Source: Mycobacteriales bacterium (GTDB taxonomy: Bacteria > Actinomycetota > Actinomycetes > Mycobacteriales > SCTD01). Taken from it: a stretch of 64,000 nt of DNA. The DNA is taken from the NCBI GenBank assembly GCA_030447385.1, contig JAUJOY010000001.1:1-64000 (forward strand), given 5' to 3'. Shown piece after piece: positions 35,557 to 58,054 of this stretch. The notes below the pieces were generated by a model that was given only the letters and a program-made list of their open reading frames with translations, did no database searches and was not told where the DNA came from. Numbering within the stretch: position 1 is the first letter of the stretch; every line of letters begins with the position of its first letter. The position numbers and the translations under genes are program-made.

Positions 35557-35629
35557 GCGCTCGTAGCTCAACGGATAGAGCACTTGACTACGGATCAAGA
35601 GGTTGGGGGTTCGAATCCCTCCGAGCGCA
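35557..35629 (+). tRNA. tRNA-Arg (anticodon ACG)
   Basis: 73 nt. Acceptor GCGCTCG/CGAGCGC with discriminator A, D arm GCTC-AACGGATA-GAGC, anticodon stem CTTGA/TCAAG around CTACGGA (ACG), and T arm GGGGG-TTCGAAT-CCCTC. No CCA is encoded. An integrase gene ends 90 bp downstream and points toward it, so the 3' half is the likely attachment site (attL) of the element to the right. Confidence 0.95.
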
Positions 35630-35718
35630 CAGCAAAACAGCAGGTCAGAGGGGTCGCTCCGGTTCAGGCGGCTCCTCTTTCGCGTTTCGTACAGCCTCGA
35701 ATACAGCCACGGCGGTGA

Positions 35719-36897
35719 TCAAGTCGATGAGCCAGGGTTCATCTGACGCAGGAGGTCGTCCATGCGGTCGGCGGCCGCGCGCTGCACCGGCTCGAGCAGG
35801 TGCGTGTAGAGGTCGCTCGTCGTGGACAGCCGCGAGTGGCCGAGCGTGCCCATGACGACGCGCATGTCGACGCCCTGCAGCAACATGAACGAGGCAGCGG
35901 CGTGCCGGAGGTCGTGGATGCGGATCCGTCGGACCTGGGCGCGGTCGCAGAGCGCGTGGAACGACCGCAGGACGTTGCGTGGCTCAAGCGGCGTGCCGAT
36001 GCCGGTGGTGAAGACCAGCGTGTCGTCGATCCAGACCGCAGATGCGAGGCGTTCCTGCACCTGAGCCGTCCGGTGTGCCCGCAGAGCATCGACAACGACC
36101 GCTGGCAGGGGCAATGCGCGTCGGCTCGACTTCGTCTTCGGCATCTCCGAGCGCACGAGCTTGCCGCCCACACGCTGCACGCTTGCCTTGACCTGCAGCG
36201 ACCCGCCGTCGAGGTCGACGTCCGCCCACCGCAGCGCCAGCGCCTCACCGCGGCGGAGCCCGAGCGCAGTGACGAGCAGCCACAGCGGCGACAGGCGGTC
36301 GGTTGCCGCCTGGGCGAAGAGCCGCCCCGCCTCCTCGAGCGTGAGCGGCGCGATTTCGGGGCGCTGCACCTTCGGCCCGCAGACCAGGCCGGCGACGTTG
36401 CGCACCACCAGGTCGTCGCGCCGGGCCTGCTCGAGCGCAAGGCGCAGGACCGCGTGCAGGTACTGGATCGTGCGGGAGGACAGCGGTCGCTTCGTCCTCG
36501 GGCTGGTCTGCGTGCTCTTGTCGCTGAGGAACGCGCGGATGTGCACGGCGGTGAGCTTGTCGAGCCGGTGGTGTCCGAGCCCCGGGATGATGTGCTGCCT
36601 GGTCAGGCTGGAGTACGACTGCGCCGTAGACGGCCGGACCAGCATCGGCAACGTGTCGCGGAGCCAAGCTTCCAGGTAATCGGCGAGCGTGATCGGGCGG
36701 CTCGTCCCAACTGGCAGGCCGGCATCGAGCGTGCGCCGGATGGCGCCCAGCTTGTCGAGCACCTCGCGCTGGGTCGCCCCGTACGGCGTCTTGCGCTTCG
36801 GCCGCCCGGCGACGATGCCGACTGCGACCGATCCCTGCCAGCCACCCTGCTTGCGCTTGTGCACCGACCCCTCGCCGGCCGCGCGTCGTGCACCCAT
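35719..36897 (-). CDS. int: Tyrosine integrase of an integrative element
   Basis: 392 residues, complete. The N-terminal arm-binding part (GSVHKRKQGGWQGSVAVG) and core-binding SAM-like domain (LADYLEAWLRDTLPMLVRPS) precede the catalytic domain. The catalytic residues can be placed: R215 in GLRRGEALAL, H328 and R331 in HDLRHAAAS, H354 in GTLGHSRLSTT and nucleophile Y364 in SDLYTHLL. This is the actinomycete pSAM2/ICE-type integrase. ATG 36897 is chosen at the start of similarity. The gene ends 90 bp from tRNA-Arg and is preceded by an excisionase, the standard layout. Confidence 0.93.
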   Translation of the reverse strand: MGARRAAGEGSVHKRKQGGWQGSVAVGIVAGRPKRKTPYGATQREVLDKLGAIRRTLDAGLPVGTSRPITLADYLEAWLRDTLPMLVRPSTAQSYSSLTRQHIIPGLGHHRLDKLTAVHIRAFLSDKSTQTSPRTKRPLSSRTIQYLHAVLRLALEQARRDDLVVRNVAGLVCGPKVQRPEIAPLTLEEAGRLFAQAATDRLSPLWLLVTALGLRRGEALALRWADVDLDGGSLQVKASVQRVGGKLVRSEMPKTKSSRRALPLPAVVVDALRAHRTAQVQERLASAVWIDDTLVFTTGIGTPLEPRNVLRSFHALCDRAQVRRIRIHDLRHAAASFMLLQGVDMRVVMGTLGHSRLSTTSDLYTHLLEPVQRAAADRMDDLLRQMNPGSST

Positions 36898-36934
36898 TAC
36901 GGACCCCTCCGTCGTTGGTCGACAGGGACAGCGG

Positions 36935-37121
36935 TCAGCCCGTTCGGCGCAGCTCGGCCAGAAAGTCGTGGACGGCGTCGAGGGGGATGTCGGCAGCTGC
37001 CGATGCGGATCGACCTTAACTGGCCGGTCTGCAGGAGTTCGTAGACCTTCGATCGGCCGATGCCGAGTGCCTGCGTGGCCTCGACCGGGGTGAGCAGCAG
37101 CTTGTCCATGTCGTCCTCCAT
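36935..37121 (-). pseudogene. Excisionase/HTH_17 DNA-binding protein, frameshifted
   Basis: LLLTPVEATQALGIGRSKVY and ELLQTGQLRSIRIGSCRH is the classic Xis/MerR-like helix-turn-helix. At about 36995 the frame is lost; with one base added it would continue IPLDAVHDFLAELRRTG and stop at 36935-36937, giving about 62 residues. As read, the frame runs on to overlap int. Start is ATG 37121 or ATG 37109. If the shift is real, the element may be unable to excise. Confidence 0.75.
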
Positions 37122-37155
37122 GATGACGAGGGCGCTCGGACGTGAGTGCCTGAAC

Positions 37156-37239
37156 GTCCCTCACTAGTTGAAGGTGCGATCTGAAGGCCCTCTGTGACAG
37201 CCGATCTTGGCCTTTCTCATGCACGGCCCCTTGCCACCA
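37156..37239. repeat. Diverged upstream repeat, copy A
   Basis: This 84-bp segment aligns with 40608-40699 at an estimated two thirds identity or more by eye: GTCCCT-AC-TA, GAAGGTGCG-TC, CTGTGACAG, GATCTTG, TTTCT, CACGGCCCC and GCCGCCGG occur in the same order. It lies upstream of the minus-strand xis-int genes. CTGTGACAG (37192-37200) is a palindrome around a central G and could be an operator. Confidence 0.65.
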
Positions 37240-37966
37240 CAGCCGCCGGGTGCAAGGCGGATCACGCCCATTCCCCACTCAAGCCGCAGACGACCCTTGC
37301 CCCATGAGGCTCTTCCTCCACGGGCAAGGGTCCTCACCCTTGCCCGTGGGAGTCGGCCCTCCACTGGCCCACTCGGCGCGCGGCGACGGGGCGGCATCGT
37401 CGACCGCACTGACGACGAGGTGGGCCGGCGGCTGGAGGCCGGTGGAACGACCTCGCGCCCGTAGCCAGCCGTCGTCTGGGTGAAGGCTTCGCGCACGCGC
37501 GCCGCGGTGACTGCGCGGCATGCCCTGCGGGGAGCCTGTTCGGCGGCGAGCAGTTCGGCGGCGCGTCGGGCTGATGCTGCTTGAGCGGCCCGCCCCTGCA
37601 GCTCGCGAAGGGGGCCAGTGCCGGGCTCAGGCGGTGCAGCCCGTCCAACATCTGGAGCAGCCGGCGGGTGTCGGCCTGGCGGACGAACTCCATCCCCCAC
37701 AGCCCCCGGCGGCCCGTCTCCCCGCGCCGCTCCGGTCGGGATGGGTGGCCGGCGACGCAGCCCCGAGCAACCTGGTCGTAGGCGTCCGCGGCCTGTCGCA
37801 GCCTCCAGCGTCCAGGGCGGGGTCGTATGGCCCGTTGAGGATTGGCTTGTCGATCACCGCGTCGACGCCTCACCGGACGAGGCCGACAGCAGACTCGCTG
37901 TGCAGCTTGGTCGCTTCGCCCCATCGGGCAAGACTTTCTTGGAGTGGGCCAAGGGTGCTGTCCCAC
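37164..37966 (-). pseudogene. Mobilization-associated helical protein, copy A, frameshifted
   Basis: Recognisable coding: RQAADAYDQVARGCVAGHPS, then VRQADTRRLLQMLDGLHRLS in one frame and, after about 37615, LRELQGRAAQAASARRAAEL in another. The same order (CYDRAARDLHRQIAPP, VKRADTRQLLALLSELTALC, QGRAAQARAARQAAEHLTAE) is found in the gene at 38.5-39.1 kb, so the two are paralogues. They lie downstream of the relaxase on the same strand. Long helices rich in Ala and Arg suggest a relaxosome accessory or relaxase C-terminal-like role, as inference. Its limits are approximate. Confidence 0.5.
37318..37349. repeat. Perfect 14-bp inverted repeat
   Basis: CCACGGGCAAGGGT, loop CCTC, ACCCTTGCCCGTGG form a perfect hairpin in the mobile element, inside the region of broken accessory copy A and upstream of xis-int. 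The half-site ACCCTTGCCC also occurs at 37292-37301. It could be a terminator, an oriT-like stem or a protein-binding dyad; no nick-site consensus is identified. Confidence 0.65.
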
Positions 37967-38104
37967 TCGGGCCTACTGAGCACGGTCCGGGCAAGACCCG
38001 GATCCCCACCTGCGGGGCGGCGCCGTCCACAGTTCCGGGCTCACGGGGTCTTGCCGGCGGACTCGGAGGGCGAGGCTGGGTGACCCGTGGAAGGAGCTCT
38101 CTCC

Positions 38105-38503
38105 GTGCAGGACCCGACCGTGCCGCCGCCCGGTGATGAGTGGCCATCCGATCCGCCGCCGACACCGCGCCAGGACCATGCCGTGCTGGCATGGCTCGCC
38201 CTGGAGGCAGACCTGCCGGACGCGGTGCAACTTCTTCTGCTCGATGCGCTGGTGGCGTGGGCGCCGCTGATGGGGCCGCACCTGTTCCCGACCGAGCCCG
38301 AGGCGGGGGTGGAGTCCGACGTCGGGCAGCTGCTCGAGGCGATCTGGTGGCGCCGCAGCGAGCAAGCTGTCGACGCGCCATGGGCGCAGAAGGTGGCCCT
38401 CAACGAGCTCTGCGGACGACTCGGCCTGGTGCTGGCCATCCTGCGCGCCCCGGCGCCGGCCGCACCACCGGCCGCACCACCCCTGGGGTCACCGGGCGGT
38501 TGA
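38105..38503 (+). CDS. Hypothetical helical protein of the mobile element
   Basis: 132 residues from GTG 38105 with AAGGAG 8 bp upstream. After a Pro-rich head the centre is regular helix: HAVLAWLALEADLPDAVQLL, then LLDALVAWAPLMGPHLFP and VGQLLEAIWWRRSEQAVDAP, ending in an Ala/Pro tail. It is the only plus-strand gene in the mobilization block and overlaps the 3' end of accessory copy B by 15 bp. No family recognised. The coding pattern and ribosome-binding site make it credible. Confidence 0.6.
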   Translation: MQDPTVPPPGDEWPSDPPPTPRQDHAVLAWLALEADLPDAVQLLLLDALVAWAPLMGPHLFPTEPEAGVESDVGQLLEAIWWRRSEQAVDAPWAQKVALNELCGRLGLVLAILRAPAPAAPPAAPPLGSPGG

Positions 38504-39107
38504 GGGCCGCCGCGTGTGGGCGCTGGTCGGGACGGACGGCGGTGTCGGTACCCCGACGCTTGGCAACCAGGTCGCCCTCGTCGAGACCACTGGGACGGCA
38601 GCGGATGCGGCGGTCAGGCGGCGTCCGTGTTCGGCGGTGAGATGCTCGGCTGCCTGCCGTGCGGCCCGGGCCTGCGCGGCTCGTCCCTGCGTCTGGCGCA
38701 GCACCGCCATCGTCTGGCAGAGCGCCGTCAGTTCTGAGAGCAGCGCGAGCAGCTGTCGGGTGTCGGCTCGCTTGACGATCCGGGCGTTGAGCAGGGCGCC
38801 AGCTGCGCGGCGGGTCGTTCGGCTGAGGGAGGTCGGAGGCGCGATCTGGCGGTGCAGGTCCCGGGCGGCTCGGTCGTAGCAGTCACCGGCGGCGCACAGC
38901 GGCCCGCGGTGCTTTCGCTCGACCAGGAGCTTGTGGCGTGCAGCATCTCGCTGGCCGCCGTGGCCGCCGCTTGCGCGCTGGCCTGCTGGGCCTGGCTGGC
39001 AGATGGGCTGCTGGCGGCCCGGATCTGCTCGGTGGCCTCCCGCGCCGCCCGCTGCGCGGACAGCCACAGCCGGCGTCGTTCCAGCTCGGTCAGGTTCCCG
39101 TCCCTCC
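38489..39107 (-). pseudogene. Mobilization-associated helical protein, copy B, frameshifted
   Basis: The first part, LTELERRRLWLSAQRAAREA and AAATAASEMLHATSSWSSE, is in one frame; after about 38925 the frame continuing to the stop at 38489 has GDCYDRAARDLHRQIAPPTS, VKRADTRQLLALLSELTALC and QGRAAQARAARQAAEHLTAE. It is homologous to copy A. It begins about 27 bp after the relaxase stop, but no normal start codon is evident; the Shine-Dalgarno-like GGAGGG at about 39109 suggests the true start has been lost or altered. Confidence 0.55.
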
Positions 39108-39133
39108 AGGGGCCGCCGCTGCTGCTGCCCGGC

Positions 39134-40079
39134 CTACGAGCAGGCGCTGACGCGTTCGGCGTCCGACGCTGCGCCGGCCGGGCTGTCGTCGTGCCAGCGG
39201 GCCTGGAGCTGGGGCAGGCTCAGGTCGGGGGCGAGCTTCCCACCGCCGAACCAGACGCTGGCCTGGTCGGTCGTTCCGTGCGGCAGGAGCGCCACGGCGT
39301 AGCCGGTGATCTCCCCGGGTTGCGGGTGCTGTAACGCTCACGGACCACAACCCCGGAGGATCGGAGCCGGTCGGCGAACTCCTCCCAGCCCTGCGAACCG
39401 GCCAGCGCCGACCGGACCCGGGCCCGCAGCACCTCCCGGTCCGGTCCGGCCGCAGGCGGCAGTCCCGCCTTCGCCCGGGCTCGCACCGTCGTCTGGTGCT
39501 TGCGTCGCTCGCCCTCGTGATCTCCGGGTTGGCCGTGCGGTCCACCGGGCTGGTCGGGGTCAGCCCGTACTGCTTCTCGACCGCCAAGCTCGCCTCACGG
39601 GCCCGGTAGAAGTCGTGGTGCGGGAACACCCGCCGGCCGTCCTGGCGGACCAGGGTCGCCACGACGTGCACGTGGTTGTCGGCATGCCGCACAGCGACCC
39701 ACCGCACCGCGCCGGTGTCGCCGTGCTCGGCCAGGCCGAGCCGGTCGAGGTACTGCCCGGCGATGTCAGCCCACTGGGCGTCGGACAGCAGCCGGTCGGT
39801 CGGGGCGGCGCTGATCGCCAGGTGATAGGTCGCCTTGGCGTCCTTGCCGACCCCGCCGGCCCGCACCGGCGCGTCCAGCAGCGCAGCCAGCCGAGACACG
39901 TCGGCCCGCCCGTTCCTCGTCCGCTCCGGCTCGAGCCCGCCGGGCCTCTGGTAGCCGGCGATGACCCGGGCGTCGCGGTGCGCGGAGTCCAGGCCGCGCT
40001 CACCAGCCAGGCCCCCGGTGAACAGGTAGCCCAGCAACCGGCGGGTGTCAGTCCCGCGCCGGCACACCTTCCCGATCAT
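39134..40079 (-). pseudogene. MobA/VirD2-type relaxase, two frameshifts
   Basis: From ATG 40079: MIGKVCRRGTDTRRLLGYLF, KATYHLAISAAPTDRLLSDA and RWVAVRHADNHVHVVATLVR. The last holds the HxxxHxH metal site (H132, H136, H138) of actinobacterial relaxases. Near 39517 coding shifts to a frame with GSQGWEEFADRLRSSGVVVR; near 39315 a missing G in a G-run shifts it again to EITGYAVALLPHGTTDQASV and a TAG at 39134-39136. The repaired protein would be about 315 residues. It would nick oriT for mobilization by a helper conjugation system. It is preceded by the MobC-like gene. Confidence 0.75.
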
Positions 40080-40112
40080 CGAGTGCCGTCCTTCGGGTTC
40101 CGCCTGTGCTGC

Positions 40113-40577
40113 TCAGCCGAGACGGCGGGACAGCGCGACGGTGGCCCGGTCCATCCGCTCGCTGGCCCGCGCACAACCGTTGACGGCCTGCAGCAGCCAC
40201 ACCGGCGCGCCCGCGCCGCTGTTGAGGGCCGCGACGGCCTGGTTCAGGTTCACCCCGTACCGGCCCAGCGCCGTGCGGCCCTGCAGCAGCTCGGCCAGCA
40301 ATGCCCTGTCCGCCGACGTCGCCGGGGCGACCCCGGACCCGGACAGCGCCAAGCCGGCCGCCGCGACGAAGCCAGTCGGCGTCAGCCCGGCCAGCTGCGC
40401 CGCCACCCGCACCGAAGCGACCTCCACATCGTCATAGAGCACCTTCAGCGCGTTGCGGCGACCAGGGAAGCGATGCGCCCGGTCCCGCACGAAGGCGCCC
40501 CGCGCACCGCGTGCGGACAGCACACCATCAACCGGCAGCTGCACCGGCCGCTCCGACAGCTCGTCGTGACCATCCAT
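40113..40577 (-). CDS. MobC-like relaxosome protein
   Basis: 154 residues. LKVLYDDVEVASVRVAAQLA then GLTPTGFVAAAGLALSGSG resembles the ribbon-helix-helix N-terminus of MobC proteins, and YGVNLNQAVAALNSGAG is their conserved NLNQ-N motif. MobC binds oriT and assists the relaxase. It lies 33 bp upstream of the relaxase gene on the same strand, as usual. The region upstream (40608-40699) is one copy of a repeat also found before xis-int. Confidence 0.75.
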   Translation of the reverse strand: MDGHDELSERPVQLPVDGVLSARGARGAFVRDRAHRFPGRRNALKVLYDDVEVASVRVAAQLAGLTPTGFVAAAGLALSGSGVAPATSADRALLAELLQGRTALGRYGVNLNQAVAALNSGAGAPVWLLQAVNGCARASERMDRATVALSRRLG

Positions 40578-40607: not shown

Positions 40608-40699
40608 GTCCCTTACCTACAGAAGGTGCGGTCGGGCAGGGTGCTGTGACAGAAGATCTTGAAGTTTCTGCGCACGGCCCCGTTCCGGTGTGCCGCCGG
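40608..40699. repeat. Diverged upstream repeat, copy B
   Basis: This segment matches 37156-37239 over its length, with CTGTGACAG at 40644-40652. It stands directly upstream of the minus-strand mobC-relaxase operon, while copy A stands upstream of xis-int. A shared promoter/operator is the simplest reading. An oriT duplication is the alternative. Confidence 0.65.
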
Positions 40700-41135: not shown

Positions 41136-41879
41136 CTACGGGAGTCGCCCGCCTTCGCCGGGGAGCGTCGTGATGACCTGTCCGTCGAGCAGGCGCCAGG
41201 CGTAGTAGGCGGCGGACAGGAGCAGGACGGCGGCGAGGACGAGATCGACGCGGCGGGTCTTGCGGGGGTCGTCGGGGACGAGCCACCGGCCGCCCGCCGC
41301 CGCCGCGGCGTAGAGCGTCACGGCCCGGCCGACGACGAACGCGGCGACGACGAGCAGGGACGGGAGCGGGCCGGCGGCTGCGGCGGCGGCGCCGACCGCG
41401 GCGGCGACGGGTGCGCAGCCGGGGCAGCCGCTGACAGAGAACAGGACCCCGGCGCTGACCGCCCGGATCGGGTCGGGCGGAAGGGCCTCGAGCCGGCGGC
41501 AGAGGGCGGGGCCGTTCGCGCGAAGTAGCCGCACGGCGGCGTAGGTCAGCAGAACGACGGCGACGACGTTGAGGACGACCGCGGCGCGGGTGAGGACGAC
41601 GAGGACGCCGACGAACCCGGCGGACAGCGTGGCGACGACTCCGTCCATGCCGATGACGAAGCCGAGGACGACGGCGAAGCCGCGGGGTCCGCTGACCGCG
41701 GCCGGGCAGCGCTCGCGGGCGGCGGCGCGGGCGGGGCCGACGAGGGCGACGACGGCCGGCAGGCTCGGCCAGGACACGGGCGTGACGGTCAGGGCGGCGC
41801 CGGCAAGGAGGCCGAGCAGCGGCGCGAGAAGTCCGGCCTGCTCGATCTGGACGGTGAGGAACTCAACCGGCGTCAGCAA
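41136..41879 (-). CDS. CcdA/DsbD-like polytopic membrane protein
   Basis: About 247 residues with six to seven helices: LLAPLLGLLAGAALTVTPVS, GFAVVLGFVIGMDGVVATLS, GFVGVLVVLTRAAVVLNVVA, FVVGRAVTLYAA and VDLVLAAVLLLSAAYYAW. A central FSVSGCPGCAPV loop carries a CxxC pair, suggesting thiol-disulfide electron transfer across the membrane as in CcdA/ScsB. The start is uncertain: TTG 41879 is the only usable codon before the operator at 41921-41939 and lacks a good ribosome-binding site. Divergent from the small gene at 41948 and sharing its operator, so probably copper-controlled (inference). Confidence 0.65.
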   Translation of the reverse strand: MLTPVEFLTVQIEQAGLLAPLLGLLAGAALTVTPVSWPSLPAVVALVGPARAAARERCPAAVSGPRGFAVVLGFVIGMDGVVATLSAGFVGVLVVLTRAAVVLNVVAVVLLTYAAVRLLRANGPALCRRLEALPPDPIRAVSAGVLFSVSGCPGCAPVAAAVGAAAAAAGPLPSLLVVAAFVVGRAVTLYAAAAAGGRWLVPDDPRKTRRVDLVLAAVLLLSAAYYAWRLLDGQVITTLPGEGGRLP

Positions 41880-41920
41880 GGGCCCGACCGGCCCGTGGGC
41901 GACCGGACCGGAGGAGACCG

Positions 41921-41939
41921 GTACTGCAGGGGAGTATAC
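41921..41939. promoter_or_regulatory. CsoR-type operator 1 (with -10 TATACT)
   Basis: GTACTGCAGGGGAGTATAC, a degenerate copy of the GTACTCCC-N-GGGAGTAC palindrome found four more times in the copper cluster. It overlaps TATACT at 41935-41940, a good -10 box 7 bp before the ATG at 41948, so the plus-strand message would be leaderless and repressor binding would block it. It also covers the promoter side of the CcdA-like gene. Confidence 0.65.
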
Positions 41940-41947
41940 TTGTCGGC

Positions 41948-42214
41948 ATGACCATCCATGCCTGGGCAGAGCACGTCGTGCACGTCGAGCTCTTGAGTAA
42001 CGACGTCGAGATCTCCGAGACAACCGTCCGGTTCCTTGAGCGGCGATTCGCCGACCGCGACGTCGAAGGGCACGCCGAGCCGGGCAGGGTCGGGTTGCAC
42101 AGTGAGCTCGACAGCCCTGTCACCGCCGAGAACGTCGCGCGCGCGCTCGTCGAGGCCGGGGTGCGGGCGCACGCCGTCCACGAACGGCAGGAGTGGAGCG
42201 TGACCGATGCCTAG
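41948..42214 (+). CDS. Small conserved-looking protein of the copper cluster
   Basis: 88 residues: MTIHAWAEHVVHVELLSNDV, a helix FLERRFADRD, VGLHSELDSP and AENVARALVEAGVRAHAVHE. The beta-alpha-beta-beta-alpha-beta order resembles a heavy-metal-associated (HMA) fold, but the metal CxxC is absent. His residues at 4, 9, 12, 42, 51, 75 and 78 could bind metal instead. It is first in a plus-strand unit with two tiny genes, under operator 1. Function not recognised. Confidence 0.6.
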   Translation: MTIHAWAEHVVHVELLSNDVEISETTVRFLERRFADRDVEGHAEPGRVGLHSELDSPVTAENVARALVEAGVRAHAVHERQEWSVTDA

Positions 42215-43153: not shown

Positions 43154-43296
43154 GGTTTGCGGCCCTTGCCTTTCTTGCCCTTCTTGTCGCCGCCCTTGTC
43201 GGACTTGCTCTTCTTCTGCGCCGCATGGGCCTGTCTGCGAGCGTCCCGGAGCTGCTTGCTCGTCGGGATGCTCGGGTCGCTCTGGTCCTCGCTCAT
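43150..43296 (-). CDS. 48-residue Lys-rich protein
   Basis: [20 protein letters not shown] followed by RQAHAAQKKSKSDKGG and a KKGKKGKGRKP tail. AGGAGAAG precedes the ATG at 43296, which overlaps the TGA of the flavoprotein gene; its own TGA overlaps the next GTG. This double coupling makes a real small gene likely. The Lys-rich tail resembles nucleic-acid- or membrane-binding tails. No known family. Confidence 0.65.
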   Translation of the reverse strand: MSEDQSDPSIPTSKQLRDARRQAHAAQKKSKSDKGGDKKGKKGKGRKP

Positions 43297-44486
43297 GCGG
43301 CTTCTCCTGCGGTGGGTGCTGGCTCGGAGGACCGAGCGCTGCGAGGCACGGCGTGACCAGGCGCGACGGGCCGGTCAGGCGCGGCCGCGACGGGGACCGG
43401 CCGGCGCTCGGCCTGGTCGCCGGCGATGCGCCGGACGGCCTCGCGAGCGTCGCGGTCGACGCCGTTGATGATCCCGCTGTTGAGCCGGGTCTGCCACGGC
43501 AGCCCGACCCAGTGGAGGCCAGCGGCCGGGGACCGGCCTGCGTCGTGGATGGGCCGACCCTGCTCGTCGAGGGCGCCGGCGACACGGAGCCACTGGTGGT
43601 CGGTCTTGTAGCCGGTGCACCACAGGACCGCGTCCGCCGGGATCTCGGTGCCGTCTGCGAGGACGGCGGTCTGTCCGTACGCGCCGGCGACGCGCTCCGT
43701 GAGCATCCGGACCTTGCCTGCGGCGACGAGGGTCTGCAGGTCCCGGCCGATGATCCCGTTGCCGCGGGCACGGACCATCCGCGAGATCCGGCTGGTGCTC
43801 GGGCTGTTGAGGACACCGGTGAGCCAGAACCACCAGTAGACGCTGACGCCCAGGAGTCGGGCGGGCAGGAACCACATCCCGCCCGGCGCGGCGACGGTCA
43901 CCCGCCGCTCGGCGGCGGCGAGCTCGACGGCAAGCTGCGCGGCGGTGTTCCCCGCGCCGACGACGAGCACGTCCTCGCCGGGCAGATCGTCGGGGGCGCG
44001 GTAGGACGACGAGTGCATTTGCGCAACCGAGGGGTCGAAGCCGTTGGCGGCGTCCGGGACGAACGGCGCGGTGTACGGCCCGGTCGCGACGACGACGTGC
44101 CGGGCCCGGATCCGCCCGGTCGTCGTCTCGGCGACGAACCCGCCGTCGTCCCGGGCCAGGGCGAGGACACGGGTGCAGAGCCGGACCGGCAGCCGTTCCC
44201 GAACGGCGTAGTCGGCGAGGTAGTCGGCGGTCTGGTCCTTCGTCGCGTACTCGCCCGGGCCGCGGGGCGTCGCCGTGCCGGGGAGCGGGCTGAACCGCCG
44301 GGGCGTGAACAGGACCAGGCTGTCCCACCGCCGGCGCCAGCTGTCGCCGATCCGCTCCGCGCCGTCGACGACGAGGAACGACAGCGACGTCCGCCGAGCG
44401 AGGTGGTGCCCGGTCCCGAGCCCGGCCTGCCCAGCGCCGATCACCAGGACGTCCACGCCGGCGCCCTCGGGGTGGGGCCCGGTCAC
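43293..44486 (-). CDS. CzcO-like flavin-containing NAD(P)-dependent monooxygenase
   Basis: 397 residues. The FAD motif [20 protein letters not shown] and NADP motif [20 protein letters not shown] bracket a [20 protein letters not shown] loop; [12 protein letters not shown] and [12 protein letters not shown] close the fold. This class is called CzcO or Trk-like and often lies beside metal-efflux genes. The GTG at 44486 overlaps the CopA stop and the TGA overlaps the Lys-rich gene, so it is in the copA operon. The real substrate is unknown; oxidation of a metal-binding thiol or siderophore-like compound is possible. Confidence 0.85.
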
Positions 44487-47311
44487 CGCGCGCCCGCCGC
44501 CGCGGGCTGACGGGCGGCGCCGTCGGGCGCGTCGTGCATGACGGGGGGCTGGAAGCGGTTGAGGCGGGCGCTGTTGAGTACGACGCTGATGCTGGAGATC
44601 GCCATCGCGGCGGCGGCGATGAGCGGGGACAGGAGCGCGCCGGTGACGGGGTAGAGCAGCCCGGCGGCGACCGGGATAGCGGCGACGTTGTAGCCGAACG
44701 CGAGCACGAGGTTCTGCTTGATGTTGCGCATGGTGGCCTTGGACAGCGCGATGGAGGTGACCAGGCCGCGGAGCTCGCCGGACATCAGCGTGATGTCGGC
44801 CGCCTCGATCGCGACGTCGGTGCCGGTGCCGATCGCGACGCCGACGTCGGCCTGGGCGAGAGCGGGGCTGTCGTTGATGCCGTCCCCGACCATCGCGACG
44901 AGCTTGCCCTCGTCCTGCAGCCGGCGGACCTCGGCGGCCTTCTGGTCCGGCAGGACCTCCGCGAGGACCCGCGTGATCCCGACCTGGCGGGCGACGGCGT
45001 TCGCGGTCCGCTCGTTGTCGCCGGTCATCATCGCGACCTCCAGCCCGAGGCGCCGGAGCGCGGCGACGGCAGCGGCGCTGTCGGGCTTGACGGTGTCGGC
45101 GACGGCCACGAGCCCTGCGGCCCTGCCGTCGACGGCGACGTACATCGGGGTCTTGCCCTGGTCGGCCAGTCGATCGGCGTGCTGCTCCAGCTCGCCGGTC
45201 GTGATGTCGGCGTCGCGCAGCAGCCGGGCGTTGCCGATGAGCAGCTCGCGTCCGTCGACGGTGGCCCGTACGCCCTTGCCGGTGATGGAGTCGAACGTCG
45301 TCACGGGGGACAGCTCGACGCCGCGGTCCTTCGCGCCGGCGACGATCGCACCGGCGAGCGGGTGCTCGCTGTCGACCTCGGCGGAGGCGACCAGGCGCAG
45401 CAGCTCGGTCTCGTCCTGCCCGCCGACGGGGACGACGTCGGTGAGCTCGGGCTTGCCGCGGGTGATCGTGCCGGTCTTGTCCAGCACGACCGTGTCGAGC
45501 TTGTGGGCGGTCTCCAGCGACTCGGCGCTCTTGACCAGCACGCCGTACTGCGCGCCCTTGCCCGACGCCACCATGATCGACAGCGGCGTCGCGAGGCCGA
45601 GCGCGCACGGGCAGGCGATGATCAGGACGCTGACGGCGGCGACGACCGCCAGCGTGAGCTGCGGGCCGGCGACGAACCAGACGACGAACGTGATGATCGC
45701 CAGGAAGATGACGGCGGGCACGAAGTAGGACGCGATCAGGTCGGCGAGGCGCTGGATCGGGGCCTTGCTGCTGGACGCCTCCTGGACGAGCTTGATGATC
45801 TGCGCGAGCGCGGTCTCGGCCCCGACTCGGGTCGCGCGCATCGTGAACGCGCCGGTTGTGTTGACCGTCGCGCCGATGACCGGGTCCCCGGCGCCCTTGC
45901 TGACCGGCAGGCTCTCCCCGGTCACCATCGACTCGTCGATCGTGCTGGTGCCGTCGGTGACCTCCCCGTCGACCGGGACCTTCTCGCCCGGCTTGACGCG
46001 GAGCAGATCGCCGACCTGGACCTGGTCCGCGGGGATCTCCGTCTCCGCGCCGTCGCGGACGACGCGGGCGGTCGCGGGGGCCAGGGAGACGAGCGCGCGG
46101 ATTGCGTCGCCGGTGCCGGCGCGGGCGCGGGCCTCGATGAGCCGGCCGAGCAGGATGACCGTGATGATGAAGCTGACGACCTCGTAGTAGACCTCGCGGA
46201 CGTCCTCGGGCAGGACCTGCGGGATGAACGTCGCGACCAGGCTGTATGCCATCGCGGCGATGGTGCCCAGGGTGATGAGGCTGTTCATCTCGGCGCTGCG
46301 GTTGCGCAGGGCACGCCAGCCGATGCTGTGGATCGGCCAACCGACGTAGAGGAACACCGGCAGGGTCAGGAGGAGCTGGACGTAGCGGTTCTCCAGGACG
46401 TCGGGGACGTACTGCTCGCCGATGAAGTGCTCGACCATCGCGGCGTACAGCACCGGCACGGTCAGCAGCGCGCCGAGCGCTACGCGGCGCTTGAGGTCCC
46501 GGACCTCCTCCTTGCGGGCGGCCGCTTCGGCGTCCTCCGTGTCGGTGCTGCCGGGCTCGGGGCGCAGCCGGGCTGGGAAGCCGGTGGCCTCCGCGACGGC
46601 CCGGGTGAGGCCGTCGGGGTCGAGCCGGTCGGGGTCGTAGGTGAGGACGGCGCGTTCGGCGCCGAAGTTGACCGTCGCGCTGTCGACCCCGCCGACGGCC
46701 TTGAGCTGCGCCTCGGCGCGGGCGGTGTCGGTCGGCAGGCTCCGCAGCGCCCCGGGGAGCATGAACTCGATGCGTTCGACGGTGTGGCCGCCGTCCAGGC
46801 GCGGCCCGACGCCGACGGCCCGGGCGGTCTCGCGGTTGTCGGTCGTGACGCCGCGGGCGGCCTCGGCGACCTTGCCGGCACCCTGCTCGGGGGACGCGAG
46901 AGCGGTCTGCGCCTGCTCCTGCGCGCCCCCGCCGCCGGGGGCCTCGGCGACGAGGGTGCCGTGGAGCATGTTCATCCCGCACGCCCAGGAGTACTCGCCC
47001 GGCTCCGCGAGGTCGAGGTCGAGCGTGGTCGTGCCGAACGCCTCCAGCGACGCGCTCTTGCGCAGGTCGGGGAAGACGACGCGGGCGGTGCAGTCGCTGT
47101 TCTCCTGCCGGTGGAACCGCAGGCGGACGGGGGTGCCTGCCTCGACCCGGATCAGGCTCGGCGAGTAGCCGCCCTTGACGGTGATGTCGACGACCTGCCG
47201 GCCTCCCTCGACCTTGGCGTCCGTCGCGGTGCGGGGCTGGAAGAAGTACCAGGCGAGGCCGGCGATGAGGCCGAGGCCGGTCAGGACGACGGCGATGTCA
47301 GCGGCGGTCAT
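44483..47311 (-). CDS. copA: Copper P1B-type ATPase with N-terminal cupredoxin domain
   Basis: 942 residues. A first helix (6-24) leads to a cupredoxin-like domain (about 38-124) with possible ligands H67, C74, C111, M113, M115 and H117 ([11 protein letters not shown]). Residues 178-250 have the HMA beta-alpha-beta pattern ([20 protein letters not shown]) but no CxxC. The ATPase core is complete: TGES 464-467, CPC 567-569 in the membrane, D611 KTGT phosphorylation site, HP 650-651, GDGIND 809-814. It exports Cu(I). Head of a coupled operon with the flavoprotein and two unknown genes, 54 bp after the Met/His-rich gene. Confidence 0.95.
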
Positions 47312-47707: not shown

Positions 47708-49042
47708 CTACAACGACGTCGACGCCCTGGTGTTCCCGGCGGCGAGGATCGCGCCCGCGACGTCGCCGGGCCGCTCGACCGGCAAGCCGTGCGTCCCGGG
47801 CAGCCGGACGACATCCACGCCCGGTCCGATCAGCCGGTCGAGGCCGGAGGCCAGGACGGTCTGGTCGTCCTCGGCCATGACCACGGTGGTCGGCAGCGGC
47901 GGGTCGGCGAGCCACTCGGGCAGCGGACTATCGTCCATCAGGCTCGTCAGAGCGTCGCGATAGGCGGGCCAGACGTAGGTCACGGCGTCCCGGGCGACAT
48001 CGGCGGGGATGTCGGGCGACACCCGCGCGGCGACGCGGGGCGCGAGCGCGGTCAGCGGCCGGCGGAGCAGGCACATCGTCCCGCAGGCGACGTCCGCGAC
48101 GGGCGAGCCGGTCATCGTCTTGCGGGCGATCCAGGAGCGTCCGCCGATCCGCGCGCGGGCCTCGGCGGCGTCGGCGAACGCCGCCGGCGCGACCAGGACG
48201 AGCCGCCGGACCAGCTCCGGCCGGTCCTTCGCACCGGTGACCGCGACGGCGGCGCCGTAGGAGTGCGCGACGAGCACGACCGGCCCGCCGCCGTGCCGCT
48301 CGATCAACCGGACGACCGCCGCGGCCTGGTCATCGAGGTGGAAGTGCGTGCCGAGCCTGATCGACGCACCGAACCCGAGCAGGTCCGGCACCAGGGTCCT
48401 GGCCCGGCCATCGATCTCGCGGACGACGGGCCGCCAGAACGCCGACGACGCCCCGAGCCCGTGCAGCAGCACGACGGTGGGGCCCGCGCCGCCGGCCTGC
48501 TCGTCGTGGACCAGGTCCGCCGCCGCCGGGTCGCGCTGCGGCCGCAGGACCGCCATCCCGGTCAGCCCGATGCCCGGCGGCAGTCCAAGAGCGGCCTCGG
48601 CCCGGCGGGCCCGGATCCACGCCGTCAGGGCGCCGACGTACAGGCCCAGGCAGGTCAAGGCGGCGAGGAGCCAGCTGCCGTCGCCGCCGGGCAGGTAGTG
48701 CGCGGCGACGTGGCCGAGGAACACGTCCATCCACCGGTAGTGCGGGACGCCGCCGCGGAACAGCAGGTCGGGAAGCATCGCGTACAGATGGAACGCCAGG
48801 ACCAACGGCAGGAGCAGCCGCGGCCCAGGCGCCCCGGTGACGAGCAGCCGGAACAGCAGGACCAGCGACCCGAACGCCAGCCCGACCAGGAAGTGCGTCG
48901 CCCAGTGAAACCGCGCATCGTGGGCGCTGTAGCTCGCGTACAGCGCGATCTCGGCGAGGACCAGCAGAGCGAGCTGCACGGCGAGGGAGACCGGCCGCAG
49001 CGGCCGGTACGCATGGCTCCAGCCGTCCGGGTCGGCGATCAC
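47708..49042 (-). CDS. Membrane domain fused to an alpha/beta hydrolase
   Basis: 444 residues. The first half has five membrane helices (VSLAVQLALLVLAEIALYAS; THFLVGLAFGSLVLLFRLLV; LLPLVLAFHLYAMLPDLLF) and HYRWMDVFLGHVAAHYLPGG. The second half is an alpha/beta hydrolase: VVLLHGLGASSAFWRPVV oxyanion region, nucleophile in VAHSYGAAV, acid in VVMAEDDQTV and His in PGTHGLPVE. GTG 49042 overlaps the stop of the thioredoxin-like gene. Third gene of the csoR operon. A link to copper is by location only; lipid or ester hydrolysis at the membrane is the likely chemistry. Confidence 0.75.
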   Translation of the reverse strand: MIADPDGWSHAYRPLRPVSLAVQLALLVLAEIALYASYSAHDARFHWATHFLVGLAFGSLVLLFRLLVTGAPGPRLLLPLVLAFHLYAMLPDLLFRGGVPHYRWMDVFLGHVAAHYLPGGDGSWLLAALTCLGLYVGALTAWIRARRAEAALGLPPGIGLTGMAVLRPQRDPAAADLVHDEQAGGAGPTVVLLHGLGASSAFWRPVVREIDGRARTLVPDLLGFGASIRLGTHFHLDDQAAAVVRLIERHGGGPVVLVAHSYGAAVAVTGAKDRPELVRRLVLVAPAAFADAAEARARIGGRSWIARKTMTGSPVADVACGTMCLLRRPLTALAPRVAARVSPDIPADVARDAVTYVWPAYRDALTSLMDDSPLPEWLADPPLPTTVVMAEDDQTVLASGLDRLIGPGVDVVRLPGTHGLPVERPGDVAGAILAAGNTRASTSL

Positions 49043-49608
49043 CGGCCGGCGTCCGCGACCGCGCCGGTGATGACGTCGACCTCGAACGCGTTCTGCGGGT
49101 ACACAGGGTCGAGCGTGGCGTACCTGACGGTCCTGCTCGGGTCGACGACCGCGTAGCCGATGGGCCGGCCACCGTCGACCGGCGTCGGCATCCCGATCCG
49201 GTCCGCGAGCTCGTCGCCGTCCGCGCCGACCTTCACGACCAGGTCGACGCCGTCATCGGCGACCGCATGCTGCCACTGCTGGAACGCCTCGCCGGAAGGC
49301 TGCTCGCGGTCGAACAGCACGACGACCGGGCGCCCGCCGAGCTCGACGCCGTCGACCAGGGCGGGCAGGACCGGACCCTCCAGGAGGAGGCCGTCTCGCT
49401 GGTCGCCGGCGGTCGGGTCGTCAAGCGGGCCCGGCGGGCGGACCACCAGCACGACGACGAGCGTGAGGACCACGGCCGCCAGGGCCGCGACGGCGGCGGG
49501 GATCCACCACCGCAGCGGCGGCTCCGCGCCGGGCAGCCTGCCCCAGTCGGCGTCCTGCGGGTCGTCGCAGCACGACCCGCGCTCGGCTCTGGCGATCGCG
49601 GCGGTCAT
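49039..49608 (-). CDS. Membrane-anchored thioredoxin-fold-like protein without CxxC
   Basis: 189 residues. A cytoplasmic head with a CCDD pair, one helix (WIPAAVAALAAVVLTLVVVL), then an outer domain: LGGRPVVVLFDREQPSGEAF, WQHAVADDGVDLVVKVGADG, IGYAVVDPSRTVRYATLDP. The strand-helix order suggests a thioredoxin-like fold, but no redox Cys is at the expected place. It starts 8 bp after the csoR stop and overlaps the hydrolase start, so it is co-transcribed with the repressor. Function unknown. Confidence 0.6.
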   Translation of the reverse strand: MTAAIARAERGSCCDDPQDADWGRLPGAEPPLRWWIPAAVAALAAVVLTLVVVLVVRPPGPLDDPTAGDQRDGLLLEGPVLPALVDGVELGGRPVVVLFDREQPSGEAFQQWQHAVADDGVDLVVKVGADGDELADRIGMPTPVDGGRPIGYAVVDPSRTVRYATLDPVYPQNAFEVDVITGAVADAGR

Positions 49609-49616
49609 CCCGCGGG

Positions 49617-49943
49617 CTACCGGTAGCGGGTGAGGACCGTCATGAGCTCGTCGTAGATGAGCGGGTCGCCGCCCTCAATCGCGGTGGTGACACACCGCTC
49701 CAGGTAGTTGCGCAGGACGATGTTGCCGACGGCGTCCAGGGCCTTCTGCACGGCGGCGATCTGCTGGAGGACGTCGGTGCAGTGCCGGCCGTCGTCGATC
49801 ATCCGGCTGATTCCGGCGACCTGGCCGGATGCGCGGGCGAGGCGCTTGAGGGCCTCGTCGCGCTTCTCCGGCGACATCATCTCGCTGTCGCACCCCGACA
49901 CCGCCGGCACGTGCGCCGCGGCCGTCTTCGTCCTTGTCGCCAT
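49617..49943 (-). CDS. csoR: CsoR/RcnR-family metal-responsive repressor
   Basis: 108 residues of the DUF156 all-helical repressor family: EKRDEALKRLARASGQVAGI, DVLQQIAAVQKALDAVGNIV, then LRNYLERCVTTAIEGG. Aligned to M. tuberculosis CsoR, the Cu(I) ligands C36 and C65 are kept (C55, C84), but H61 is Tyr (Y80), while the residue before the first Cys is His (H54) where CsoR has Tyr35. ATG 49943 has AAGGAG upstream. First gene of an operon with the thioredoxin-like and hydrolase genes. Five palindromes nearby are its presumed operators. Confidence 0.9.
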   Translation of the reverse strand: MATRTKTAAAHVPAVSGCDSEMMSPEKRDEALKRLARASGQVAGISRMIDDGRHCTDVLQQIAAVQKALDAVGNIVLRNYLERCVTTAIEGGDPLIYDELMTVLTRYR

Positions 49944-49979
49944 CGGGTCTCCTTCGTCGCGGCGTGCAGTCGCCCCATC

Positions 49980-49996
49980 ATACTCCCCCCGGGCAT
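49980..49996. promoter_or_regulatory. CsoR-type operator 3 (weak)
   Basis: ATACTCCCCCCGGGCAT, 37 bp upstream of csoR on the minus strand. It keeps TACTCCC and GGG but the right half is degenerate. Likely autoregulatory; the weakest of the five boxes. Confidence 0.5.
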
Positions 49997-50093
49997 GCGG
50001 TCGCGCCCGTATGGGAGAGGGCGTGGGACCTGCGCCCGTCCGCCTGGTGCCGCACACGCCTGACCGAAGGAGACTGACCGCGACCGCTGGTCG

Positions 50094-51706: not shown

Positions 51707-53698
51707 TCACGGGTAGCGGTACTCGCGCGTGAGGAGGTGGTTCGGCGTGACGATCCGCTCCGAGACGATCCGGTCCTCGTCGTCCAGGCGCAGCGCGAAG
51801 TGGTAGCCGAGGGCGGGCAGCGCGAACAGCAGCGTCCTGCCGCCGTCCCGCATGGCGACGGTGGCGTCGGCGGCGCCGCCCTCGGCCCACGGCTGTCCGG
51901 CGAGGAACTCCTGCCCGGTCCGGCGGGATCGGTGCGGCAGGACCACCCCAAATCCCGACGTGACCGTCTCGACGGTGTCGATGGCACTCCGCGCACCCAT
52001 CGCGTCCTGGACCCTGCGGAGCAGGCCGGGCGCGGGGACCGCGGGCCACGGCACCGGGATCGAGACGCTGCCGCCTTCGAAGCGGTCCGCCGCCACCTCG
52101 AGCGCGAGGACGTTCGTGCCGGGCGTCCAGTCGACCGCGCCGGTCCAGCAGGACGGGCCGCAGCTGTCGAGGGCCAGGGCGCGCATGCCGCCGGACGGCC
52201 CGGCGACCCGGCCGTCGAGCCGGATGCGCGCGGGGGTCCCGCCGTCGGGGGCCTTCGCGCGGAGCTCGACGCGGCCCTGCGACGCGACGGCCGCGACGGT
52301 GACCTGCCGGGCGCGTTCGGCGACCCGCACCGTCGGGCCGACCGGGGCGGCGAGCAGGCTGGACACCGGCACCAGCCGGGCGGGCGTGACCGTCGTGACG
52401 GCGGCGGCGGCGAGGACGACCGCGGCGAGAGCGGCGGTCTCCAGCGCGACGACCAGCCCGAGCGGCCGCCGGAGCGCCGGGACGGAGACTGCGACGGGCA
52501 CTGCGACGGGCGCGTCGGCGGGCACGGGCGCGGTGTAGCGCTCAACGGAGGGGGCGGGCGGGTCGGTCCGGAGCCGCCGGCGGGCCGCGACGCCCAGGGC
52601 GACGACCAGCAGGAACACCGCGATCTTGCCGAGCAGGAGCCGCCCGTAGGTCGTGCCGGTCCAATCGGCGGGCTCGGGCAGGAGCCGCAGGGCGCTGACC
52701 GTGCCGGTCGCGGACACCAGGACGAACAGGACGAGGGCGTTGCGGGCGTAGGTCCGGGCGGCGACGCGGACGGCCTTGGGGCGGCCGCGCCACGCGGCGG
52801 CGAGCCGCAGGACGTGGACGAGCCCGCCGAGCCACAGCGCCGCGGCGAGGAAGTGCGTGACCGTCAGGACCGCGCCGAGCGGGCCGTCTGCCTCGCCGGG
52901 GTGCGCCCGTGCGCCCTCCAGCGCGACGACGAGCAGCAGCATGAGCCCGGACTGCAGGCCCCGGCCCGGCCGTTGGGCGAGGACCGCCGCCATGCCGAGC
53001 GCCAGGGCCTGCAGCCCCAGGAGCCGCCCGACGCCGGGCGACGTCGCGGCGGTGAGCAGCCCGCCCGTGCCTCCGAGCCCGGCGAGCAGCCCCACCGCGG
53101 CGAGTAACGCGGCGACCGAGCCCGCCCGGAGCAGCGGGCGCGGGCCCGGCAGGCCCCCGGTCGCGTCGTCGACCCGCCACGCGAGCCAGGCGCCGCCCAG
53201 GGCGACGGCGACTCCGAGGAACAGCAGGCCCCGCAGCGCCGTCGTCCCGACCGGGACGGACTCCGGTGCGCCGCCGCCGGAAACCCCCCTGCGGCCAGAC
53301 GCCCCTGCCGCGCCGACCGGCGTCGCGACGCCGAACGCGAACGTCCCCGAGATCAGGTCGCCGTCCTGGCCGACGACCCGGTAGGTCGCCTCGTACGCGC
53401 CGACCGCCAGCGGCGCCTCCGGCGTCCCGACCAGGCCGGCCCCGCCCTGCGCGCTCGTCACCCGCAGGCGGACCTCCCGGTCGCCGGCGGTCTTGAGGAC
53501 CAGGGGCCGGTCCGGCAGCGTGACCGGCTCGTTGAATGCCAGGGCGATCTCGGGGGGCGGGTCGGTGACGGCGTACCCGGCCCCGGGCGTGCTGCTGACG
53601 AGCGCCGGGTGGGCCGACGCGGGCGCGGCGGCGCCGAGCAGGCACCCTAGGACCAGGACCGCCAGGACGGCCAGACGGCCGGTGGCCCGCGGCCTCAC
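51707..53698 (-). CDS. CopC-CopD fusion copper protein
   Basis: 663 residues. A signal peptide ends ASAHPALVSSTPGAGYAVTD, giving the N-terminal His-Pro of mature CopC; the CopC fold continues EIALAFNEPVTLPDRPLVLK to YRVVGQDGDLISGTFAFGV. Eight CopD-type helices follow (TALRGLLFLGVAVALGGAWL; AVLTVTHFLAAALWLGGLVH with a conserved His; LLGKIAVFLLVVALGVAARR). The last 230 residues are an extra outer domain rich in beta-strand, with a CGPSC pair. GTG 53698 overlaps the stop of the propeller gene. Copper uptake or periplasmic handling is the family role. Confidence 0.88.
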   Translation of the reverse strand: MRPRATGRLAVLAVLVLGCLLGAAAPASAHPALVSSTPGAGYAVTDPPPEIALAFNEPVTLPDRPLVLKTAGDREVRLRVTSAQGGAGLVGTPEAPLAVGAYEATYRVVGQDGDLISGTFAFGVATPVGAAGASGRRGVSGGGAPESVPVGTTALRGLLFLGVAVALGGAWLAWRVDDATGGLPGPRPLLRAGSVAALLAAVGLLAGLGGTGGLLTAATSPGVGRLLGLQALALGMAAVLAQRPGRGLQSGLMLLLVVALEGARAHPGEADGPLGAVLTVTHFLAAALWLGGLVHVLRLAAAWRGRPKAVRVAARTYARNALVLFVLVSATGTVSALRLLPEPADWTGTTYGRLLLGKIAVFLLVVALGVAARRRLRTDPPAPSVERYTAPVPADAPVAVPVAVSVPALRRPLGLVVALETAALAAVVLAAAAVTTVTPARLVPVSSLLAAPVGPTVRVAERARQVTVAAVASQGRVELRAKAPDGGTPARIRLDGRVAGPSGGMRALALDSCGPSCWTGAVDWTPGTNVLALEVAADRFEGGSVSIPVPWPAVPAPGLLRRVQDAMGARSAIDTVETVTSGFGVVLPHRSRRTGQEFLAGQPWAEGGAADATVAMRDGGRTLLFALPALGYHFALRLDDEDRIVSERIVTPNHLLTREYRYP

Positions 53699-54645
53699 TC
53701 GGAGTAGCGGGTGGTGAACGTGCGGCCCTGGTCGGTGCTGGCGAGGATCCCACGGTCGGTCGCGGCGACGTAGAGCGTCTCCGTGCCGTCGCGGACATCG
53801 ACGGTCATCGCCTCGGGCTGGCCCCCGACCGAGCCTCGCTCGCCCCAGGTGGTCCCGCCGTCCTCGGACCGTTGCACGTTCCCGTCCGGCGTCACGCCGT
53901 AGAGCTGGCCCTGTCCGGCCCAGGCCAGGACGACGAGCGTCGGCGCCCCGGCGATCGGCGTCCAGGCCCGGCCGCCGTCGGTGCTGCGGACGACGCCCTG
54001 CCGGGTGGTCGCGAGGAGCGTGTCCGGGTCGGCGGGGTCTACAGCGAAGTCGGCCATCGGGAGCTTTGAGCGGCGGTCCCACTCCTTGCGGTCCCGGCTG
54101 ACCATGAACGTCTGCGACGTCGAGTCGTAGCCGTAGACGTTGCCGTGGGCGGCGTGCAGGGCGTGGAAGTCGGCCTTGCCGTGCAGACTGATCCGGTCCC
54201 ACGTCTCGCCGCGATCGTCGGACTCGATCAGGCCGAGCAGCGGCGGACGGACGTCGTCCTCGCGAAAGTCCGGGTGGCCCGAGCCGATGAACTTGCCCGG
54301 TCCGACGATGGAGAAGCCCATCGTGTCCTGGGCGCGGTTCGCGACGCGCTGGGCCCTGCCCTGCTCAGGGACGCGGAACAGGCCGGAGTGCGTCGCGGCG
54401 TAGAGGACGCCGTCGCCCGGGTCGACGCCGAGGCCGTGGACGTGGACGACGCCGCTCTCGACCTCCAGGGGCGGCAGCCCCGAACTCGCCCGCAGGCCGT
54501 CCCGGCCGTTGTCTCCGTCGGACTGCGCCAGGAACACGGCTCCGGCAGCCAGGGCGGCGGCGGCCAGGACGCCGGTCACGGCGATCCTGCGTCGGCGCTC
54601 GGCGCGCTCCCGCTCTTGCCGGGCCCCGGCGGTGCGCTTCGACAT
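53695..54645 (-). CDS. Membrane-anchored BNR/sialidase-like beta-propeller (F510_1955 type)
   Basis: 316 residues. Short basic head, one helix (IAVTGVLAAAALAAGAVFLA), then a propeller with repeated Asp-box-like motifs: ESDDRGETWDRI, STDGGRAWTPI, SEDGGTTWGERG, STDQGRTFTTRY. HVHGLGVDPGDGVLYAATHS and FHALHAAHGNVYG place several His that could bind metal. GAGGAG precedes ATG 54645 and operator 5 lies 22-39 bp upstream. It overlaps copCD. Such propellers are found in copper-resistance loci; the molecular role is unknown. Confidence 0.8.
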   Translation of the reverse strand: MSKRTAGARQERERAERRRRIAVTGVLAAAALAAGAVFLAQSDGDNGRDGLRASSGLPPLEVESGVVHVHGLGVDPGDGVLYAATHSGLFRVPEQGRAQRVANRAQDTMGFSIVGPGKFIGSGHPDFREDDVRPPLLGLIESDDRGETWDRISLHGKADFHALHAAHGNVYGYDSTSQTFMVSRDRKEWDRRSKLPMADFAVDPADPDTLLATTRQGVVRSTDGGRAWTPIAGAPTLVVLAWAGQGQLYGVTPDGNVQRSEDGGTTWGERGSVGGQPEAMTVDVRDGTETLYVAATDRGILASTDQGRTFTTRYSE

Positions 54646-57550: not shown

Positions 57551-58054
57551 GGCGGGTCTCCGCGGGTGGTCGGCGGGCCCGCAGGGCGCGTCAGCGCAGC
57601 GCGGGACCCGGATGGGGTCTGAGTCGAGCTGGCATCGACGTTGCTCCTCGGAGACGTGGCGGGCCCGGGCACTGTGCCACTCGAGCCGCGTGCTGTCGAG
57701 CGGGTTCCGGTCACCTGCCCGGACACGGCCGTCTGTGCGGCAGGCTCCGGCCGGTGAGGGCCAGCCTGGCCGGCACCGCATGAGCCGGCCCACCCCCGCG
57801 AGCAGGTGCTCGCGCTCGCGGGTGACGCGAGCAGCCTGAAGGCCGGCCAGGCGCAGGCGAGCGCGGCGAAGTGGCCGAGCCTTGACGTCGACGGCGCGTA
57901 CGCCTGGGGCAGCGCGAAGCACGCGCGGCGATGACGGCCACGGCGTTGCTCGCCGGTGCCTGACCTTGTAGCCATTGGCCGTCGAGGGCCTGTGCGTTCT
58001 CCCTGCGATAGGGAACTCAGGTGCCTCGCGCCGCTGGGTCGGGGACACTGCGAT
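57551..58054. promoter_or_regulatory. 504-bp divergent region between the AAA gene and hen1
   Basis: Both flanking genes read outward, so their promoters must lie here. I see no convincing -35/-10 pair or clear palindrome. Open frames on both strands are low-complexity shadows; the plus frame running into hen1 from 57956 has no ribosome-binding site. Confidence 0.45.

Follow-up and report, generated by a model that had tools for sequence, protein, structure and literature searches.

A probable decayed integrative mobilizable element with copper, RNA-repair and restriction genes at a tRNA-Arg gene of a Mycobacteriales bacterium

Introduction

Where does the mobile element beside the tRNA-Arg(ACG) gene of a Mycobacteriales bacterium end, which of the neighbouring genes belong to it, and can it still move? 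Here, we address these questions for the window, a stretch of 64,000 nucleotides at the start of contig JAUJOY010000001.1 (C9) of assembly GCA_030447385.1 (G000), in which window and contig positions coincide. A preliminary description, made from the letters of this stretch alone, had proposed an integrative mobilizable element (IME) at 35557–40577 that carries a copper cluster and uses a helper for its transfer. We put the probability at roughly 0.87 that one element, integrated site-specifically, occupies C9:35580–68054 and that it is a decayed IME. As a kind of element it is ordinary; it is clearly delimited, its decay is informative, and it presents one sequence signal that is new and specific, a short conserved box. 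The main comparisons are with a congener (G002) and a member of another genus (G012).

Ends of the element

The tRNA-Arg(ACG) gene (35557–35630, plus strand; ARAGORN) is an intact target and, as first described, an integrase gene points at it. The core of the left attachment site (attL) is a 52-bp direct repeat that runs from the anticodon arm to 1 bp beyond the tRNA (35580–35631, plus strand). A perfect copy of this 3′ part of the tRNA gene lies at C9:68003–68054 (attR), 4 kb beyond the window. The core has 2 copies genome-wide, even when 3 mismatches over 33 bp are allowed; no third was found in the first 240 kb of C9, nor between 35.6 and 68 kb. Inspection by eye had met no right attachment site up to 64 kb, and our search likewise found no second att copy inside the window. 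The search then proposed, for a copy of the tRNA-Arg 3′ end, recovers its test sequence once in the window and twice in the genome, the second time at C9:68033–68051, inside attR. The left end first assigned is real, and the element runs on from there to C9:68054.

The element is bounded by perfect repeats and its ends are intact. It spans 32,423 bp as assembled, or about 32.27 kb when a 100-N placeholder (C9:64670–64769) is closed. The same 55 bp are repeated on the two sides of this scaffold gap and the reading frame of a restriction gene is continuous through the overlap; judging from these bases, the gap is probably an unclosed overlap with no sequence missing. By GC content, the element could not be distinguished from its surroundings.

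The tyrosine integrase (35719–36897, minus strand; PF00589, E=1e-21) is an intact protein of 392 aa, encoded by a gene whose stop codon lies 88 bp from the tRNA. A scan of genome contigs with it retrieved distant relatives only, at ≤44% identity over most of their length. The nonamer TACAGCCAC (35702–35710, plus strand) is a probable arm site of this integrase. Two further copies stand near the right end, outside the window (C9:67897 and 67908), and 240 kb of C9 hold four occurrences (one at the left end, two at the right end, one elsewhere). Repeats of this type at both ends have the look of arm sites as known from lambda-type recombination by tyrosine integrases. Like an IME, the element encodes the integrase for its site-specific insertion and is bounded by defined att sites.

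At the same tRNA, G002 has an integrase 87% identical to this one, with one internal stop, as well as an excisionase (xis) gene. Its right end, 49 kb away, is 80% identical over 160 bp and conserves the TACAGCCAC repeats, while between the two ends no cargo matched that of the window element. Because G002 keeps both ends with other cargo, the ends form a pair between which cargo can be exchanged. Furthermore, when the flanks of the element are joined by script, they give an unbroken alignment with the tRNA-Arg locus of G012 (74% over 256 bp, reaching 177 bp past the junction). An empty-site comparison could have revealed the copper genes as ancestral, as the preliminary description had noted; instead, the nearest genome without the insertion (G012) joins the two flanks. 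In the course of events that we propose, the integrase would have recombined the att core of the element with the 3′ part of tRNA-Arg(ACG), which would have restored the tRNA and left a 52-bp direct repeat at each end.

A mobilization module in decay

Next to the integrase lies an excisionase-like gene (36897–37121, minus strand; TIGR01764). It had been named correctly, but its frameshift was overlooked: the frame is lost beyond residue 44, where three homologs stay in frame. For its own excision, the element has an intact integrase and this frameshifted xis. The relaxase and the MobC-like gene were also identified correctly, except that the relaxase is a pseudogene (38464–40079, minus strand), whereas IMEs of the iMOB type bring a relaxase of their own. 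Its MobA/VirD2 nuclease domain (about 190 aa, within 39090–40079, minus strand; PF03432, E=3e-12) is intact. Compared with a 533-aa homolog, this N-terminal domain is kept and followed by about four frame changes (near 39510, 39319, 39171 and 38926), a count that depends on the alignment, as tblastn alone demands at least two. General assembly or sequencing error is an unlikely source of the frameshifts, because the adjoining backbone genes and the large cargo genes are uninterrupted. A copy of the relaxase–MobC pair at C11:160–163 kb is 91% identical and likewise broken. By eye, positions 37200–37950, between xis and the relaxase pseudogene, resemble the C-terminal remnant of a second relaxase; this candidate (37.2–37.9 kb) was rejected, with no significant tblastn match to intact relaxases.

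The MobC/NikA-like relaxosome accessory protein (40113–40577, minus strand; 154 aa) is intact. It matches the NikA-like profile PF21983 weakly (E=0.14), homologs reach 2e-5, and these homologs adjoin relaxase genes. Such matches, weak yet consistent, suggest that it belongs with the NikA-like relaxosome proteins.

No above-cut-off match to a type IV secretion system (T4SS), mating-pair, coupling, FtsK/TraB-type translocase or replication gene was obtained among the scanned open reading frames of the element, in keeping with the preliminary description. The lack of mating-pair and coupling genes is typical of IMEs, and the FtsK/TraB translocase or T4SS that would mark an integrative and conjugative element (ICE) or its actinomycete form (AICE) is missing from these frames. 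Profile searches of the genome found no TraG/VirD4-type (TraG/D) coupling protein, and its sole FtsK is encoded on contig C8, outside the element; hence there is no obvious helper in the genome. With relaxase and xis broken as well, the functioning helper-dependent element once proposed is not supported.

Intact relaxase homologs of 506–549 aa occur in G000 itself (contig C1), G004 and G013. The G013 locus (C1) has the order tRNA-Ala, integrase, xis, relaxase (549 aa) and MobC, the last three intact, and 46-bp tRNA 3′-end repeats that lie 77 kb apart, with arm repeats of their own. In G004 (C231), a xis–int pair stands beside a tRNA cluster. By these sequence relationships, the window element belongs, in a decayed state, to a family of actinobacterial IMEs that target several tRNAs, and it would formerly have borne the int–xis–relaxase–MobC set of its intact sisters.

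Two further loci of G000 carry related genes. C1:1–4296 encodes an intact 506-aa relaxase, MobC and xis, and an integrase cut by the contig start; the relaxase shares about 62% identity with that of the window in the N-terminal domain, and the set is a possible trans-acting partner for the window element. At C9:420947–422540, the conserved box described below, xis and an integrase of the same family stand beside tRNA-Gly(CCC). The 20 kb examined near this pair gave no match to a relaxase or MobC, and the locus is a possible relaxase-less sister element.

A conserved box before both operons

A conserved box of about 30 bp, TGTCACAG-N10-GATCGCACCTTC, lies upstream of xis–int (37170–37199, minus strand), and a second copy lies upstream of mobC–relaxase (40622–40651, minus strand). 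The pattern (TGTCACAG-N9/10-GAyCGCACyTwC) was seen first before mobC, by aligning upstream regions, and then also before xis. It precedes both operons in the window element, in G000:C1 and in G013 (with one mismatch at the xis of G013). The exact pattern matches 14 times in 397 genomes of the order, 13 of these in this family, with no reversed-pattern control; 5 Mb of simulated sequence gave 0. At one of the family matches (G002:C61), no adjoining mob or xis gene was recognised.

Judging from its placement, the box may be a shared control site or a candidate origin of transfer (oriT). Its orientation matches the downstream operon in every case, and a promoter or operator role is favoured for that reason. 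The rival possibility is that it would act as the transfer origin, and we take its reverse complement to resemble the nic regions of MOBQ systems. A tentative idea, against which we would still bet, is that this one box would switch excision and mobilization together, either as the site of a helper-sensing activator, analogous to the AcaCD site of SGI1, or as an oriT-like site where the NikA-like MobC also controls excision. If true, the box could still allow an element whose relaxase is broken to move in trans. The box offers a short, very specific tag for finding such elements and leads to a hypothesis on the co-ordination of excision and mobilization.

Copper, RNA-repair and restriction cargo

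The copper genes start at 41.1 kb, after the MobC-like gene and inside the att repeats, and were rightly regarded as cargo. An attR directly after the relaxase would have spoken against this; the one found lies 28 kb past it. All on the minus strand, the cluster opens at its left end with a CcdA/DsbD-like membrane protein (41136–42023; a weak profile match, with a homologous copy at C9:86.6 kb). This is followed by a flavin-dependent oxidoreductase (Pyr_redox_3/FMO-like; 43293–44486), a cupredoxin-HMA-CopA copper P-type ATPase of 942 aa (44483–47311), an alpha/beta hydrolase with a small conserved protein (47708–49608), a CsoR-type metal-sensing repressor (49617–50057), a CopC–CopD fusion (51707–53611) and a BNR-repeat protein (53695–54645). 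Related copper clusters are present in G002 and G003, at other loci, and plasmid-borne relatives of the ATPase reach about 65% identity.

The RNA-repair locus, earlier suspected to be cargo too, indeed lies within the attL–attR span. An AAA ATPase frame (56525–58744, minus strand), with a DUF5925 domain in its C-terminal part and a gene shorter than the open frame, precedes four genes on the plus strand: the RNA ribose 2′-O-methyltransferase Hen1 (57956–59548; TIGR04074, 691 bits), the polynucleotide kinase-phosphatase-ligase Pnkp (59536–62175; TIGR04075, 1382 bits) and two RlaP nucleotidyltransferases (62106–63083 and 63080–63865; PF10127). Hen1 and Pnkp are adjacent and both above curated cut-offs, as in a bacterial RNA-repair locus. 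According to PMC4411300, a Pnkp1–Rnl–Hen1 complex repairs ribotoxin-cleaved RNA in vitro. Beyond the window, C9:64798–67818 encodes a PLD-helicase-DUF3427 protein, which PADLOC classifies as a type IV methyl-directed restriction enzyme. The right half of the element would be defence or damage-repair cargo. One mobile element here unites metal resistance, RNA repair and restriction, and all three would have been brought in by it.

Copper and RNA repair do not form a fixed pair. Full-length Pnkp is present in 2 of 24 family genomes (G000 and G001), of which G001 has Hen1–Pnkp without adjoining copper genes, and G002 and G003, which have copper clusters, lack full Pnkp. RNA repair as an inherently mobile trait is not supported either, with Pnkp exceeding the cut-off in 131 of 397 genomes from the order.

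A second, diverged copy of part of the cargo lies 18–34 kb to the right of attR (C9:86565–90645 and 98459–102557), at 76–81% DNA identity. It holds CcdA-like, hydrolase, CsoR and BNR genes followed by Hen1 and Pnkp, and several of these genes are divided between two frames; there are hence two related copper and RNA-repair blocks near one tRNA.

Insertion history and alternative readings

Immediately right of attR, a second integrase begins, truncated and of a different type, and is followed by a transposase (DDE_Tnp_1_4), which we take to be IS1380-type. Given this remnant, the element sits between the tRNA and an apparently older, decayed element, and would have landed there. Several relatives have 2–4 att copies at tRNA-Arg, which makes this gene a hot spot. 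Tandem accretion at one tRNA has been described for IMEs (PMC5704250). Beyond int–xis and the right end, almost nothing is common to C9:35.6–167 kb and G002 C5:5–131 kb over the 125–130 kb or so downstream of tRNA-Arg, the next gene pair found in both being that at C9:167.7–171.3 kb. This points to a variable region of very large extent at this tRNA in the two congeners.

Several points weigh against a single decayed IME. The relaxase and xis frameshifts are those of the assembled sequence. The joined-flank match comes from another genus, and a second att copy accompanies the G012 locus itself. Among the relatives compared, no tRNA-Arg site of the same genus proved truly empty; the only right-hand backbone anchor (C9:167.7–171.3 kb, equivalent to G002:C5:1.5–5.1 kb) is far from attR, and such a site could therefore not be demonstrated. 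Finally, attR lies on the far side of the scaffold gap, an objection softened by the 55 identical bases on both sides and the one frame running through them.

In our reading, relaxase and xis would have been broken after integration, and excision and self-directed mobilization would probably have been lost or come to need trans factors. With both genes broken, the element is now probably stuck or reliant on other elements; it is better regarded as a decayed IME that may keep a cis site and is possibly mobilizable only in trans. That it is a still-mobile IME is unlikely. In this case, the relaxase nuclease fragment would suffice or the G000:C1 relaxase would act in trans on oriT, the truncated xis would work and a helper would move the element. 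The intact integrase and MobC and the box upstream of mobC, common to the intact G000:C1 set, are compatible with this, and relaxase-less IMEs (iOriT) are known (PMC11389934). However, the C-terminal part of the relaxase and the xis frame are broken, identity to the C1 relaxase is no more than about 62% in the N-terminal domain, and no TraG/D was found in the genome.

Less probable again is a composite island, in which the integrase element ended earlier and the RNA-repair and restriction block joined separately, reusing the same att. Accretion at this tRNA (the 2–4 att copies of several relatives) and the second copper and Hen1–Pnkp block right of attR would fit, but the span from 35.6 to 68 kb holds no third att copy, and the arm repeats of the right end agree with the left arm of the same integrase. 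Ordinary chromosome with ancestral copper genes and only a small integrase remnant at the tRNA is highly improbable: copper-cluster homologs do exist elsewhere in G002 and G003, but at other loci, none was found in the tRNA-Arg regions of the relatives retrieved, and perfect repeats bound the whole segment, with attR contradicting this account.

Comparison with known systems

The helper of SGI1 encodes an activator that binds the xis promoter of the island (PMC4605294). SGI1 and the mobilizable genomic islands (MGIs), in which AcaCD controls xis, resemble the window element in that a single box stands here before both xis–int and mobC–relaxase; they differ in that no activator is known for the window element, whose box is a conserved sequence only. 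With AICEs, the element shares tRNA integration, a tyrosine integrase and an actinobacterial host, but no FtsK/TraB-type translocase or replication gene was found in it. It is not a cis-mobilizable element (CIME) either, which keeps att sites and has lost its integration and transfer genes, as the integrase is intact even though the relaxase is broken.

Canonical IMEs (PMC5704250) share with it the tRNA 3′-end target, tyrosine integrase, xis, relaxase and accessory set, cargo, tandem accretion and lack of a T4SS, and differ by the broken relaxase and xis of the window element. That review, from 2017, lists one canonical IME in Actinobacteria, and the family is accordingly little described. The G013 tRNA-Ala element and the G000:C1 locus differ from the window element in target tRNA, integrase (about 42% identity) and intactness of their genes. 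They share int, xis and relaxase/MobC beside a tRNA or contig edge and the box before both operons, with arm repeats in G013. The few IMEs described in the phylum are thereby joined by an actinobacterial family that has intact members, usable as references, at other sites.

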